DNA of 64,000 bases, from NCBI RefSeq assembly GCF_021044565.1, contig NZ_CP087997.1, forward strand, positions 248,001-312,000. Direction: 5' to 3'. Below, in pieces: positions 4,269 through 45,167 of this stretch. The notes under the pieces were generated by a model that was not told where the DNA came from, searched no databases, and worked only from the letters and a program-made list of their open reading frames with translations. The translations under genes were made by a program, and so were the position numbers. Every line of letters starts with the position of its first letter. The stretch's first letter is position 1. The DNA is from Subtercola endophyticus. GTDB lineage: Bacteria; Actinomycetota; Actinomycetes; Actinomycetales; Microbacteriaceae.

Positions 4269-4314
4269 CGAAGGTAAACGCCGACCGTGACCACGTTCCC
4301 CCCACATGGTGAAC
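4269..4314 (-). promoter_or_regulatory. PHO box (RegX3/PhoP-type operator) of pstS
   Basis: Read on the minus strand, GTTCACC (4314-4308) is followed two 11-bp turns later by GGTCACGGTCG (4292-4282), and then by GTTTACCTTCG (4279-4269). Actinobacterial phosphate-response regulators bind 11-bp direct repeats of GTTCACC/GTTAACC type. This is the expected control site for phosphate starvation acting through SenX3-RegX3, encoded at 56789-58643. Its distal end touches the proposed attL core. Confidence 0.6.
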
Positions 4315-4323
4315 AGGAGGTTA
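4314..4323 (+). other. attL core candidate
   Basis: CAGGAGGTTA here is identical to 45157-45166, at the other end of the phage-like gene block. The match continues if one base is skipped (ACGAG against AACGAG). It lies in the only plausible left boundary, between pstS and the integrase. A 10-bp match between two windows of about 300 bp is suggestive but not proof. Confidence 0.55.
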
Positions 4324-4484
4324 CGAGTCTGCGAACAAGCGGGGCGGCAGTATGGATAACGTAACGTCGCTCGCTTCCCGCCGAAAGGTGTCGTGAAAAG
4401 TGACGAAACCAGTCGCATTCTTGTTTCCCCAGGATTTAGCCGAGGTTCCTCCCACAGTAGAGACTCTTGGCCCTCTAGAACTAG

Positions 4485-4500
4485 CTCCCAGTACTGGGAG
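4485..4500. promoter_or_regulatory. 16-bp perfect palindrome upstream of integrase
   Basis: CTCCCAGTACTGGGAG is a perfect inverted repeat in the 250-bp non-coding stretch (4324-4576) between attL and the integrase start. CTCCCAC half-sites occur nearby at about 4449 and 4541. It could be a regulator site or an integrase/excisionase arm site; the sequence does not decide. I see no gene in 4324-4576. Confidence 0.4.
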
Positions 4501-4576
4501 TGTCCCCCAAACGCAGGACACAACAGACTCCGCATACGGCACTCCCACGAAGGGGAGCAATTTGCAGGGGGGAACA

Positions 4577-5401
4577 ATGGTGTTCACGTCTTATCAGAAT
4601 CACTTGATGGCAAAGAGGCAGTCGGAGCTCACAATCAAGCTGAGACTCTTCCACATGAGAGCGTTGGAACGGTCGCACAAGGATCTGTTCAAAGTCACCC
4701 CAGTGCAACTCGACCGGTACCTTGCTCAGCACCCGCAGTGGTCGGCTGAGTATTGCGGGTCGGTGATCGCGTCGTTCCGGTCGTTCTATCGGTGGGCGGT
4801 CATGGCGAAGAAGGTTCGAACGAATCCGGCCGAGTATCTGCAGAAGCCGCGCATCGACGAGAAAGAAGCCGTGGTCATTCCCGACGCGGTCATTGAGGCA
4901 GCGCTCGAGCGGTGCACCCTGGACGAGGCGGCCATGCTTTTGCTGGGTCGCCAGTGCGGGCTGCGGCGGTCGGAGATAGCTGGGCTCAAGCTCTCCGACC
5001 GGACGAGTCGTCAATTGATGGTGCTTGGCAAGGGAGGCAAGACGCGGTTCGTTTCCGTGGGTGGGGACCTCCTCGACTGCCTCGAAGCCATGGAGCGCCT
5101 TGACCCTGACCGGAAGTACTACTTTCCGGGCCGCTACGGCGGCCACGTGACCGGTGAGCACATCCGCCACCACGTGCTGACGCTCACTGGCTACAACCCG
5201 CACTCGCTCCGTCACGCGGCCGGCACGGCGTTCTACGAGCGTACGAAAGACCTCCGGCTGACGCAGGAATTCCTAGGACACTCATCGTCCCGGACGACGG
5301 AGAGGTACACGCACGTGAGTCGCGCCGCGCTCATCGAGGCCACCGAGATGGCCGGGGTGCGATCGATTGGAAGGTTCAAGCCCACCCAGCAAGCGGCGTA
5401 A
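4577..5401 (+). CDS. int: Tyrosine-family phage integrase
   Basis: Catalyses site-specific recombination between attP and attB, 274 residues. ATG 4577 is preceded by a strong AGGGGGG ribosome site; an upstream in-frame ATG at 4400 lacks one. An N-terminal SAM-like core-binding domain (about 1-90) precedes the catalytic domain, with Arg in GLRRSE (R130), Lys near 152-155, H209/R212 in HSLRH, H235 in LGHSS and the nucleophile Y244 in TERYTHV. All catalytic residues are present. It lies next to attL, pointing into the prophage. No obvious N-terminal arm-binding domain is seen. Confidence 0.93.
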   Translation: MVFTSYQNHLMAKRQSELTIKLRLFHMRALERSHKDLFKVTPVQLDRYLAQHPQWSAEYCGSVIASFRSFYRWAVMAKKVRTNPAEYLQKPRIDEKEAVVIPDAVIEAALERCTLDEAAMLLLGRQCGLRRSEIAGLKLSDRTSRQLMVLGKGGKTRFVSVGGDLLDCLEAMERLDPDRKYYFPGRYGGHVTGEHIRHHVLTLTGYNPHSLRHAAGTAFYERTKDLRLTQEFLGHSSSRTTERYTHVSRAALIEATEMAGVRSIGRFKPTQQAA

Positions 5402-39491: not shown

Positions 39492-39607
39492 GCTTCAGCA
39501 CACTCCCCGCGGTGCATCCCGTACGAACCGCCGCAGCTCACACATACGAGGGGTTCGCGGTAGTTCACGAATTTCGGGCCGTAGTCGTAGGCGTCGTCGT
39601 CACTCAT
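39488..39607 (-). CDS. Tiny Cys-rich phage protein
   Basis: 39 residues. PLVCVSCGGSYGMHRGECAE has a CxxC-x9-HxxxC layout like a zinc knuckle. Its start overlaps the repeat-protein stop and its stop overlaps the nuclease start (both ATGA), strong support for a real gene. Confidence 0.55.
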   Translation of the reverse strand: MSDDDAYDYGPKFVNYREPLVCVSCGGSYGMHRGECAEA

Positions 39608-40569
39608 GCCTCGACGACCTTGCGCCCGCGGAGGGCGTAGAACGTGTCGGCTTTGATCGCCTCACCGTCAACCTTGCGGGACTGGATATCGAGAATGTTC
39701 CAGTCCGAGTCGCGCTCGGTCAGAACAATCCAGTTGCCGAGAGTTCCCTTCGCCCGGCCTCCGCGGCCAGTAACCACAGCCACCGTCTTTCGCCCAGACG
39801 CGGTGGCCGCACCATAGTCCCCAGACGCGGTGGCCGCACCAGAGTCCCCAGACGCGGTGGCCGCACCAGAGTCCCCAGACGCGGTGGCCGCACCATAGTC
39901 CCCAGACGCGGTGGCCGCACCATAGTCCCCAGACGCGGTGGCCGCACCAGAGTCCCCAGACGCGGTGGCCGCACCATAGCGCCCAGACGCGGTGGCCGCA
40001 CCATAGTCCCCAGACGCGGTGGCCGCACCAGAGTCCCCAGACGCGGTGGCCGCACCATAGTCCCCAGACGCGGTGGCCGCACCATAGTCCCCAGACGCGG
40101 TGGCCGCACCAGAGTCCCCAGACGCGGTGGCCGCACCATAGCGCCCAGACGCGGTGGCCGCACCGTTCGCCTCACCAGTACCGGCCTGCCCGTTCGCCGC
40201 CTTGGTCGTCGCACCCTTCACTGGCTTCGAATTCGCGAACACGAACTCCACCTGTGCTTTGATCAGTGCGGGGAGGCTGATCTTCGCACCGATCTTGATC
40301 ACACGGCCCGATACCTTTGAGTCATCATCAGCGCGCGGGCCGTCGACCTCCGCAACTTCAACCTGGTGATAAACGGATGTCGCGGGCGGGTAGTAGCGGA
40401 GAACGTCAATCGGCTGGATAACAGCATGGAACCCGGTGCCACACAGCACGGCGGGCTGATCCTGCGTGTACGTCTCGCCTTCGACGTACTGAAAGCCGCG
40501 GCATTGCAGGTTCTGGTCGAACCCTTTGAACGCGGAGATCGTCTTCGATGGCGTCTTTTCGGTGGTCAT
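39604..40569 (-). CDS. DUF7666-like protein with 14 nine-residue repeats
   Basis: 321 residues from ATG 40569. The N-terminal domain (about 1-125: ISAFKGFDQNLQCRGFQYVEG, CGTGFHAVIQPIDVLRYYPP, DDDSKVSGRVIKIGAKISL) matches the phage family now called DUF7666. Then come 14 copies of GAATASG plus a two-residue linker (DY, DS or RY), and a C-terminal domain (VAVVTGRGGRAKGTLGNWIV, ILDIQSRKVDGEAIKADTFY). The 9-residue period with regular Gly, Ala and Ser suggests a beta-solenoid. Function of the family is not known to me. Confidence 0.8.
   Translation of the reverse strand: MTTEKTPSKTISAFKGFDQNLQCRGFQYVEGETYTQDQPAVLCGTGFHAVIQPIDVLRYYPPATSVYHQVEVAEVDGPRADDDSKVSGRVIKIGAKISLPALIKAQVEFVFANSKPVKGATTKAANGQAGTGEANGAATASGRYGAATASGDSGAATASGDYGAATASGDYGAATASGDSGAATASGDYGAATASGRYGAATASGDSGAATASGDYGAATASGDYGAATASGDSGAATASGDSGAATASGDYGAATASGRKTVAVVTGRGGRAKGTLGNWIVLTERDSDWNILDIQSRKVDGEAIKADTFYALRGRKVVEA
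39795..40172. repeat. 14 x 27-bp tandem repeat
   Basis: CAGACGCGGTGGCCGCACC recurs exactly every 27 bp from 39795 to 40146. Copies are identical except at two codons of the linker (GAC/CGC and TAT/TCT on the minus strand). In protein order the linkers read RY DS DY DY DS DY, then RY DS DY DY DS DS DY, then RK: a 6-unit block duplicated with one unit added. This indicates recent unequal recombination or slippage. Confidence 0.97.
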
Positions 40570-40715
40570 TTCAAGCCTTTCGGTGCCCATAGGGCGATAA
40601 CAAAACAGGGAACAGAGAGCACCCAGCAGTCGAATGCGATGCCAGAGGGGAGCGGCGAGAAGATGAGCGCCGCGAGGATGAACAGGCCACCGAGAGCCGC
40701 AGCGATACGCTTCAT
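40566..40715 (-). CDS. Small membrane protein
   Basis: 49 residues from ATG 40715. Basic start (MKRIAAALG) and two hydrophobic segments (GLFILAALIFSPLP, WVLSVPCFVIALWA). Overlaps the repeat-protein gene by 4 bp. Function unknown. Confidence 0.6.
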   Translation of the reverse strand: MKRIAAALGGLFILAALIFSPLPSGIAFDCWVLSVPCFVIALWAPKGLK

Positions 40716-40876
40716 GGGCCGACCTCGACCACGTGGTAAATCTCGGCACCCTCTTTGAGGCACCCGATGTCAGCGGCCCGGTCGGCGGCTTCGAACGTGT
40801 CGTGCTCCGATATGAGGTCGTTCTCACGCGGCCAACCGTCAACGTCCTCGACAGTGCGCCACACCTCGAACGTCAT
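40712..40876 (-). CDS. Small phage protein
   Basis: 54 residues from ATG 40876. FEVWRTVEDVDGWPRENDLI then SEHDTFEAADRAADIGC and EIYHVVEV form a short beta-alpha-beta pattern with internal EAADRAAD helix. ATGA overlaps at both ends. Function unknown. Confidence 0.55.
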   Translation of the reverse strand: MTFEVWRTVEDVDGWPRENDLISEHDTFEAADRAADIGCLKEGAEIYHVVEVGP

Positions 40877-43146: not shown

Positions 43147-43460
43147 CAGGCGACCTCGCTTTCGGATCGGAAACCGAATACTGCAATGTCCCCAATTGCC
43201 GACAATCGACTCATGAGATCTCGAACGTCCCTCCCATGGGGCACAACTGGATCAAGTTCCGGAGCGAGATAGAGGGCAGAGCATTCCAGCGCAATCGCGA
43301 ATCGCACGAGTTCGGAGACAGTGATTTCTGACTTCCGGCCGTTCTCGATGTTCGCGATGACTGACCTCGAGCTACCGGTCTTGTCGGCCAGTGCCTCGGC
43401 CGACATTCCGAGCACCTTCCGGGCCTCTTTGATGCGTGCGCCGACGTTTGGAGTAGGCAT
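43146..43460 (-). CDS. XRE-family HTH regulator
   Basis: 104 residues. RIKEARKVLGMSAEALADKT then GSSRSVIANIENGRKSEITV is a clear XRE domain (about 8-62), with a short C-terminal part. Shares its first base with the antirepressor stop. Likely a second regulator of the lysis-lysogeny decision. Confidence 0.8.
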   Translation of the reverse strand: MPTPNVGARIKEARKVLGMSAEALADKTGSSRSVIANIENGRKSEITVSELVRFAIALECSALYLAPELDPVVPHGRDVRDLMSRLSAIGDIAVFGFRSESEVA

Positions 43461-44251
43461 CAGGCACTCACCACCGCTTCGAGATGACGGCCCGCGAGAC
43501 GCTGCGAGAGACGGTTCACGCCCTTCGCGGTCACACGGATCTGCGGCACATCCACCACACGCTCACCCGTCGCCGGGTGGTAGTGAAACTGCAGCTTCGT
43601 CGCGATGTAGCCCTTGTCCACGGCGTGCTGGTAGCAACGCCACTTCGTGTCAGCACCACGGAACACCCAGTTGATCTGGTGCATGAACTCGAACAGCCGT
43701 TGCGAACCGATCGCGTGCCCGTTCCGGCTGATCGTCTTCGCCGCATCCGCCACCGAGAAGTCACCCTCAGCAGACGCCAACGCATCCCATGCGGTCGCAC
43801 GCGGCGCCAACTCCTGGTTCTCAAGGGTGAGCGCCACATTCGCGCGCTCCCGCTCGATAAGCGCCTCGAGAGCCGAGAGGTAGTCGTGGGGGAGCGCGAG
43901 GTCAGGTTCGGCGGCCGCCGCCGCGTATGTACCTGTCTTGCGGATGGAGGGGAGAACGTCACGCGTGACCCAGCGGCGAAACTCCTTGGCGTCCGGCTTG
44001 TCTGATCGGATGATCAGTTCATACAGAGCCGATTCATCAAGGATCGTCGCCGACTGGGTGCGGCCCATGGTGTCGATGACGTCAGCCAGGCTGACCCCAT
44101 CCTGATCGAGGCGGGAGATCGCCATCCGACCGTTCACGAACCCGAGGGCTTTCGTGACGTCGGCGGCTACCCACCATGGCTCTCCGTCGACGAGCACGAC
44201 GCGAATATCTGCGCCATCTCGTCGGAAGATGCTAATGTTTGCGGTAGACAT
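43460..44251 (-). CDS. Antirepressor (BRO-N plus KilA-C domains)
   Basis: 263 residues from ATG 44251. The N-terminal BRO domain (about 1-110: IRVVLVDGEPWWVAADVTKA, LDESALYELIIRSDKPDAKE, RRWVTRDVLPSIRKTGTYA) and C-terminal KilAC region (about 150-255: DFSVADAAKTISRNGHAIGS, RLFEFMHQINWVFRG, QIRVTAKGVNRLSQRL) are both complete. Such proteins counteract the repressor or drive lytic growth. Second gene of the early operon. Confidence 0.85.
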   Translation of the reverse strand: MSTANISIFRRDGADIRVVLVDGEPWWVAADVTKALGFVNGRMAISRLDQDGVSLADVIDTMGRTQSATILDESALYELIIRSDKPDAKEFRRWVTRDVLPSIRKTGTYAAAAAEPDLALPHDYLSALEALIERERANVALTLENQELAPRATAWDALASAEGDFSVADAAKTISRNGHAIGSQRLFEFMHQINWVFRGADTKWRCYQHAVDKGYIATKLQFHYHPATGERVVDVPQIRVTAKGVNRLSQRLAGRHLEAVVSA

Positions 44252-44276
44252 ACTTTCTGATTCCTTTCGGATCGTC

Positions 44277-44303
44277 GCCCCCGCTGTTCGAGCAGACGGG
44301 GGC
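44277..44303. terminator. Stem-loop between Cro-like and antirepressor genes
   Basis: GCCCCCG/CGGGGGC with a 13-nt loop. On the plus strand it is followed by ATTTTCTTT, as in a terminator of antisense reads. On the minus strand no T-run follows, so it may only attenuate or stabilise early message. Confidence 0.5.
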
Positions 44304-44314
44304 ATTTTCTTTGG

Positions 44315-44596
44315 CTAAGCGGCGTCCGAGGACACGAAAGAAACCCCCGACGTCAGACCGCTGGGGGAAGCGGCCACGTTGGGGGTCGTTGGGAGGATCG
44401 TGTCCGCAGAGAGTCCGAGAACTGCTGCGATGCGCACGAGGGTGGTTCCGTTGGGGACGTGCCCGTTGAGTTCCATGCGTGCGATGGTGCTGGTGGAGGT
44501 TTTGGCTTGGCGCGCGAGTTCTTCGCGAGTCAGTCCGATTTGCTCCCGTGCAGATCTGAGACTGGCACCTGTTTTGTCATTTGTCAGAATTGCCAT
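44315..44596 (-). CDS. Cro-like XRE repressor, first early gene
   Basis: 93 residues. LRSAREQIGLTREELARQAK then TSTSTIARMELNGHVPNGT is an XRE HTH (about 12-65). It is divergent from the plus-strand gene at 44724, with palindromic operators between, which is the Cro position of a genetic switch. ATG 44596 has no evident ribosome site; the message may be leaderless. Confidence 0.8.
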   Translation of the reverse strand: MAILTNDKTGASLRSAREQIGLTREELARQAKTSTSTIARMELNGHVPNGTTLVRIAAVLGLSADTILPTTPNVAASPSGLTSGVSFVSSDAA

Positions 44597-44619
44597 GTGT
44601 CAACCATGCGGGTTCCGCT

Positions 44620-44661
44620 TTGACATGTCAAGCTTGATCGCATAGCATTTCTGACATGTCA
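44620..44661. promoter_or_regulatory. Switch region: two identical operators and repressor promoter
   Basis: TTGACATGTCAA (44620-44631) and TGACATGTCA (44652-44661) are perfect palindromes with centres 31 bp apart (three helical turns). The first contains a plus-strand -35 TTGACA (44620-44625), spaced 17 bp from -10 TAGCAT (44643-44648), giving a promoter for the gene at 44724. The opposite strand also has TTGACA here, for the early operon. Confidence 0.75.
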
Positions 44662-44723: not shown

Positions 44724-45167
44724 ATGTCCGCCTCCTCGAAACGCGTCGTAGAACTCCTCCCACGCATCAAGCCACGCGTGCTCACGCTGGGGGAGTCGTT
44801 CATTCTGGCCCTAGACAAGGTCCCGCGCGGCCGGGGGCTGACGCGCGCGTACGAGCACATAGAAACCGTCGTCGGAAACCTCTACGGCACCCGCAACACC
44901 TTCGGGAAACTGACAAGCGCTGAGAGCTTCGGTGACCTCAACACCAAAGACCGCACACGGGCATGGATACTCATGGCAACCCTCGGTGTGAACCCCGCCG
45001 AGTTCGGCGCCAATGACGATGTCCCGCTCGAGAACATCGACTCGCTACGTCGCCGGCTTCTGCTTCCCGAGCTCGCGCCGGTTCGCGAAGGCGAAATGCC
45101 CGCCGAATGGAGTGCTACGGCCCGCGATGCCAATGCTGGCGCGGTAGATGCCCAACCAGGAGGTTAA
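44724..45167 (+). CDS. Probable immunity repressor whose 3' end is at attR
   Basis: 147 residues in the integrated state. ATG 44724 follows GAAAGGG. Helical, with GNLYGTRNTFGKLTSAESFG then LNTKDRTRAWILMATLGVNP, a pattern I associate with actinophage repressors, but no standard HTH profile is evident. It is divergent from a Cro-like gene, next to att and, in the circular phage, directly upstream of int. Its TAA stop (45165-45167) lies in the att sequence; the circular form would read 24 codons further. Confidence 0.55.
   Translation: MSASSKRVVELLPRIKPRVLTLGESFILALDKVPRGRGLTRAYEHIETVVGNLYGTRNTFGKLTSAESFGDLNTKDRTRAWILMATLGVNPAEFGANDDVPLENIDSLRRRLLLPELAPVREGEMPAEWSATARDANAGAVDAQPGG
45157..45166 (+). 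other. attR core candidate
   Basis: CAGGAGGTTA, identical to 4314-4323. The next base (A) completes the repressor stop TAA and host sequence begins about here, some 20 bp before the end of the convergent NUDIX gene. The host-side sequence GGTTAAC is the distal half of the reconstructed PHO box. Confidence 0.55.

Follow-up and report, generated by a model that had tools for sequence, protein, structure and literature searches.

Does a phage make a different repressor once it has integrated, and does its immunity then depend on integration? The question is raised by a plus-strand gene at 44724..45167 of a 64,000-nucleotide stretch of the Subtercola endophyticus genome (assembly GCF_021044565.1, contig NZ_CP087997.1, positions 248,001 to 312,000; "the window" below means this whole stretch). 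The gene, which we call rep, lies at the right end of a prophage, encodes 147 residues and, as a first-pass annotation had pointed out, ends in the attachment (att) core shared by the two prophage ends. We consider it probable that rep encodes the lysogeny repressor, with the phage attachment site (attP) in its 3′ end, and that integration alone yields the stable, active 147-residue form and hence immunity.

The attachment core and the stop codon

The prophage spans about 41 kb (4314-45166 of the window, on a single 4.32 Mb contig), and eight of the ten long prophage open reading frames (ORFs) submitted to PHROGs were matched, including those for terminase, portal, head and tail proteins and exonuclease VIII. 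Host DNA on the left encodes a PBP-like protein (PF12849), which we label pstS-like from its position, and host DNA on the right carries a NUDIX/histidine-phosphatase gene and a polyphosphate kinase gene. In all 11 same-genus genomes compared, the NUDIX gene adjoins the pstS-like gene and the prophage is absent, which places the insertion upstream of the pstS-like gene. The window contains exactly two copies of CAGGAGGTTA, on the plus strand at 4314..4323, between the pstS-like host side and the integrase side of the prophage, and at 45157..45166, in the 3′ end of rep; shuffled sequence gave a mean of 0.01 matches, and two copies in 0 of 100 shuffles. In L003, the closest relative with an empty site, right-flank homology reaches down to window position 45157 and left-flank homology starts at 4327, the two matches overlapping by 15 bases that mark the crossover zone. 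Because its empty site, GGTGAACAGAAGGTTAACGAGAAGCG, accounts for both the left junction, GGTGAACAGGAGGTTACGAGTC, and the right junction, CCCAACCAGGAGGTTAACGAGAAGCG, we take the CAGGAGGTTA core to be the crossover region, and joining the prophage ends in silico predicts the attP junction GGTTACGAGTCTGCG.

A search of the window for tRNA genes found none, and the core lies outside any tRNA gene. This location and a core of just 10 bp are what would favor a fortuitous repeat, with the real attP elsewhere. We regard that as very improbable: the two copies sit exactly at both breaks in host homology, with 0.01 matches expected in the window, and integrations outside tRNA genes with cores of 3-25 bp have been published (PMC8092301).

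The TAA that ends rep (45165..45167) consists of the last two core bases and the first host base, the last base being assigned to the host because the prophage-free genomes of the genus place the insertion at the core. When the prophage ends are joined, the attP core falls within the rep reading frame, TAA becomes TAC, and the frame continues through 24 added codons, YESANKRGGSMDNVTSLASRRKVS, to a TGA at 4394-4396. The joined, viral frame thus encodes 171 residues and the integrated gene 147; at the right junction a stop completed by host DNA (TAC to TAA) shortens the protein, and the rest of the 24-residue tail and its TGA are left as a remnant at 4324..4396 (plus strand). Recomputing the joined frame reproduced the codons and lengths of the first-pass annotation. 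Third-position GC content is 0.75 in the tail frame (0.72 in rep, 0.80 in the integrase gene, int) versus 0.52 and 0.57 in the other two frames of the joined stretch, which stop after 13 and 11 codons. The statement that the TGA lies immediately upstream of int holds for the tyrosine integrase ORF (4400..5401, plus strand; PF00589, 2.3e-19, and a PHROGs integrase match), which opens with GTG 4400, and does not hold for the likely start of the protein, which is probably ATG 4577, since a GGGGGG resembling a ribosome-binding site is present.

Several results concerning this tail count against our reading. Base shuffling of the tail stretch leaves 24 codons open in 16% of cases, and a frame of that length is open at 56% (plus strand) and 65% (minus strand) of prophage positions; because such openness is common by chance, it is weak evidence by itself. 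The 171-residue form ends in KVS, not AA. Finally, the summed likeness of the tail to the tails of P0002, P0003 and P0005, all close relatives, falls short of significance (135 of 2000 shuffles; 66, 570 and 1018, respectively, when taken singly), and for that reason we do not claim that the window tail and these relatives share a VTx(I/L) motif. With open frames so common, the case rests on relatives of the protein.

The stop position across a protein family

Searches with the window sequence alone found little: a scan of viral contigs gave no relative, and elsewhere the sequence retrieved three besides itself. One of the three, of 127 residues and on a 145-kb contig, ends in DSNQEPAG, and the other two, of 167 residues each, continue beyond DSNQEPAG or DSNHQPAG. 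Because single-sequence searches yielded so little, profiles were needed, and these enlarged the family to 10 and then to 125 proteins, of which 122, the window's own included, enter the tail counts below. The sources are mainly metagenomes, with uncultured Mycobacterium and Cryobacterium luteum among the named ones, and further loci come from a Jatrophihabitans metagenome-assembled genome and from Rhodococcoides fascians. Of two scans of genome contigs, one yielded no relative and the other three. In samples of whole genomes the window's genome, itself counted, was the only carrier found (1 of 398 in the taxonomic family, 1 of 394 in the class and 1 of 396 in the phylum), where at most 10 first-look candidates were scored per listed genome, so that members may have been missed.

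Searches of existing collections turned up little that resembles these proteins. No Pfam or NCBIfam match at 0.01 was found for 104 aligned members, and the best E-value for nine members against PHROGs was 0.0085. The window protein alone found nothing by tblastn among the phage records; six members searched in this way against 50,697 phage records yielded no convincing relative, five being without a match and the sixth hitting only two DNA polymerases (E 0.1 and 0.5). In the literature on integration-dependent immunity and related terms we found no description of the family. To judge from these searches the family is unannotated, and it appears to carry a known phage trick.

The C-termini of the family carry the main evidence. 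A tRNA-like C-terminal peptide (for example GLEPRTR, NQRPSD or NPEPAD) is present in 62 of the 122 proteins, as against a mean of 2.9 and a maximum of 9 in 300 tail shuffles; the motif patterns were drawn up after the tails had been seen, and the shuffles control for composition only. Translating the opposite strand of a tRNA gene across its 3′ half yields such peptides. Fourteen of the 62 proteins stop exactly where the peptide ends. In those that read through, the residue at this stop position is Y, W or C in 28 of 48 (background, 4.9%), and at the next five positions in 3/48, 3/47, 1/47, 4/47 and 3/46. Codons for Y, W and C are one base away from a stop codon. Moreover, an ssrA-like AA forms the last two residues in 54 of the 122 (expectation, 1.5), VA in 11 more and AS in 7, and the AA end is found in 25 of 47 long forms versus 0 of 15 short forms, a comparison that uses a slightly different cut from the 14/48 split. 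All of these counts come from related clusters and are therefore not independent.

Where a whole tRNA is present, the DNA bears out this origin of the peptides: the family genes of L034 and L046 terminate within a tRNA-Lys gene and that of L045 within a tRNA-Asn gene. Among the other loci, in L032, L033, L037 and L053 the contig breaks off directly after the gene; and in L035, L036 and L044 an integrase gene lies downstream, so that repressor and integrase can be read on one contig with no in silico join required. In L034 the peptide GLEPRTR is followed by TGA, inside tRNA-Lys, and in L035 the same peptide is followed by TGG and a tail ending in LMASAA, with the integrase ORF beginning 24 bases on. 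These are different phages, and L035 is without a whole tRNA, but the two look like the two states at apparently the same kind of site. L036 ends in GEVAA, overlaps the integrase ORF and has no tRNA-like peptide, and L044 ends in SVPA, 265 bases upstream of its integrase. The first-pass annotation had suggested comparing repressor lengths in phage relatives, and the comparison came out in its favor: short forms end tRNA-like, and long forms continue, three of them beside an integrase and many ending in AA. The GG-TAA/GG-TAC switch of the window obeys the stop rule of the family at a site outside tRNA genes.

It is also possible that the overlap is passive, the att site lying in a tolerant, non-essential tail, so that both the 147- and the 171-residue proteins repress and integration leaves regulation unchanged. 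The missing AA tag of the window's long form, the frequency of 24-codon open frames and the published members without recognizable tags (PMC8092301) would all fit. We nevertheless think it quite unlikely in view of the contrast in AA ends between long and short forms, the excess of residues one base from stop at the stop position of long forms, and the integrase's own QQAA end.

Contig sizes bear on whether short forms come from integrated phages. Contigs of the 15 short forms are not significantly larger than those of 45 of the 47 long forms (P0076 and P0089 omitted; Mann-Whitney p 0.11), and contigs above 40 kb hold 6 of 15 short versus 2 of 45 long forms (Fisher 0.002). One of these two long forms, P0043, belongs to a prophage in which the stop comes later within the tRNA gene. 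For four virus records the second att end was not found, each pattern having a single match per record, on the side where the gene ends.

The odds are, in our estimate, somewhat better than even that this is an unrecognized family of actinobacterial phage repressors (more than 120 clusters at 90% identity) with the attachment site in the last codons, in which the host, usually through a tRNA gene, writes the stop; in the window the site would have moved to the PHO-box-like promoter of the pstS-like gene, the one-base switch would have been kept, and the tail would inactivate by a signal other than AA. "Unrecognized" here refers to the phage records and family libraries that we tested. The logic of immunity by integration would then extend to a large, mostly metagenomic family, the stop-position pattern would make the mechanism testable across many phages at once, and the C-terminus of a protein may reveal the attachment site and whether its contig is integrated or free. 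The window contributes an example that lies outside tRNA genes and lacks the usual tag, and it could help to find the signal by which the viral form is disabled.

The control region and the candidate repressor

Upstream, rep diverges from a Cro-like Xre helix-turn-helix (HTH) gene (44315..44596, minus strand; PF01381, 2e-12), with two palindromes between them, an arrangement that the first-pass annotation had described correctly. Behind the Cro-like gene lies an antirepressor-like Bro-N/KilAC protein gene (43460..44305, minus strand; PF03374, PF02498). Both candidate operators are perfect copies of TGACATGTCA, at 44621..44630 and, 31 bp on, at 44652..44661; the first overlaps a promoter-like TTGACA-17-TAGCAT facing rep (44620..44648, plus strand), of which one was found versus 0.1 in shuffles. 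A third operator-like site, TTGCCATGTGTCA, covers the Cro-like start codon (44590..44602).

An alignment of the window with L032, L033, L034, L035, L037, L045 and L046, seven of the ten further loci of the family (L036, L044 and L053 were left out), shows this control block to be clearly conserved, and a site similar to the third operator is present in seven of the eight aligned sequences, L032 being the exception. Allowing one mismatch, the palindrome pair is spaced by 31 bp in the window, L032, L035, L037 and L045 and by 32 bp in L034, and a single near copy is present in each of L033 and L046; L036 and L044 have no palindrome with up to one mismatch, and L053 has no exact TGACATGTC. L035 shares the order of the window, with an integrase downstream of rep, a divergent Cro-like gene and the operators between. 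We note that a small CxxC-type ORF lies between the operators and the family gene in L032, L033, L034, L037 and L046, and upstream of the family gene in L044; in the window rep follows the operators directly.

The structure model of the 147-residue protein is confident and helical over residues 21-112, and most of the best-ranked matches in a structural comparison are HTH proteins, the likeness being weak. Further points count against our reading here: structural Z scores are below 8 throughout, a level rated common; Foldseek alone gives nothing below E 1; Pfam, NCBIfam and PHROGs assign the protein to no DNA-binding family; the operators are possibly those of the Cro-like protein; and 60 of the 122 family proteins lack a tRNA-like peptide. 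The 44724 protein, with no family hit and weak structural matches, might be some other integration-sensitive regulator, such as a co-repressor or a directionality factor, with the Xre protein, whose HTH is clear, as the true repressor acting on the palindromes, and the CxxC-type ORF between operators and gene in five relatives is a further point in favor. We hold this to be unlikely, given that the gene order is that of known repressors, that HTH proteins dominate the structural matches, and that in known systems a Cro-like protein takes the position of the Xre protein.

The reading we prefer, a repressor that would bind DNA and that integration would activate, can be put as follows. In the phage state rep, attP and int would follow one another downstream of a promoter that the operator palindromes cover, and the 171-residue product would probably be inactive or short-lived. 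Integrase would recombine attP with the 10-bp core upstream of the pstS-like host gene; a tyrosine codon (TAC) would become a stop (TAA) through the first host base beyond the core, and the lysogen would make a stable, active 147-residue repressor; since that form would be made only in the lysogen, immunity would follow only from integration. The sequences themselves show the junctions, the open frame, the protein family, the pattern at the stop position, the operator block and the order of genes, and from these we infer that the protein binds DNA, that the long form is inactive and that immunity results.

Known systems and the attachment site

In the published integration-dependent systems attP lies within rep, rep and int form one operon, the viral form is inactive and degraded, and the host base after the core creates the stop (PMC4557955, PMC9262239). 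The architecture of the window is that of BPs and Charlie, and like these and Brujita it has attP in rep, a divergent Cro-like gene, int downstream, a stop made by a host base, a shorter prophage form and a tag-like integrase end (PMC4557955, PMC9262239). The first-pass annotation had named BPs, Charlie and Giles as sharing the principle; this stands for the first two, and Giles is not among the Clusters G, I, N and P named in PMC4557955. The gene order it gave for such systems (Cro-like gene, divergent repressor, att, int) was found in full. For BPs, whose gp33 has forms of 136 and 103 residues, the host base converts a cysteine codon to a stop (PMC9262239), the same rule as in the Y, W and C excess of the family.

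We compared repressor sequences for Charlie gp35 and Brujita gp34, the systems of BPs, Mycobacterium abscessus, Gordonia and Bifidobacterium being likened by description only. In four comparisons with the repressor profile the hhalign probability was at most 2%, in keeping with the expectation that the protein is no obvious homolog, and alignment of the 104-row profile was confined to the tRNA-coded stretch. The viral forms of Charlie and Brujita carry the tRNA-like stretches SNQRPADY and SNPRPIHY and end in SAA and HAA, respectively, unlike the window's long form. In both repressor genes (L048 1416-1787 and L049 3083-3469, minus strands) a tRNA-derived peptide is followed by Y; the stop-position rule thus recurs in repressors without detectable homology to the family.

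Two features set the window apart: its bacterial attachment site (attB) lies upstream of a pstS-like gene, against the statement in PMC9262239 that attB is a tRNA site in all phages that have such systems, and its tail lacks a classic LAA end, as had been noted. Both have precedent in M. abscessus, where the first host base forms the stop in MabC, MabK, MabN and MabO, integration removes 20-35 residues, attB-8, -12, -13 and -14 are non-tRNA sites with short cores, and MabC, MabN, MabO and MabH lack ssrA-like tags (PMC8092301). With its host-base stop, loss of residues, short non-tRNA core and untagged end, the window resembles the MabB, MabC, MabH, MabK, MabN and MabO systems as a class. In Gordonia phages (PMC5559632) and in the Bifidobacterium prophages Bb423phi2 and 689b-1 (PMC6109161) attP is likewise in the repressor gene, with ssrA-like viral tails and, respectively, mostly tRNA sites and a tRNA-Met site. 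Because non-tRNA members and members without AA have been published, and because the architecture agrees, we conclude that the window probably works like this class.

The integrase ends in KPTQQAA, an ssrA-like end as in known integration-dependent systems, and the tag encoded by the host's transfer-messenger RNA ends in SFALAA. We also observe that the Cro-like protein (44315-44596), which ends in SSDAA, and the integrase (4400-5401) both end in AA like ssrA-type tags; the long repressor form, ending in KVS, does not.

Lying upstream of the pstS-like gene, the attB site (window 4299-4330 and L003-L013) consists of a direct repeat that resembles a PHO box, GTTAACCTTCTGTTCACC (complement strand), and integration changes the distal repeat. 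A GGTGAAC-type repeat is kept in all 11 empty sites shown (L003-L013), and it is similar to GTTCACC, the unit of the Streptomyces coelicolor PHO box (PMC4415409). After integration GTAACCTCCTGTTCACC adjoins the pstS-like gene, and therefore one repeat is altered, not lost. Integration here may influence phosphate control.

Elsewhere in the prophage, a 27-bp tandem repeat of about 15 steps (39683-40245) lies inside a minus-strand ORF (39604-40842) with a match to phrog_4433 and weaker ones to tail-fibre profiles; the ORF is nonetheless located near RecE-like and antirepressor genes.
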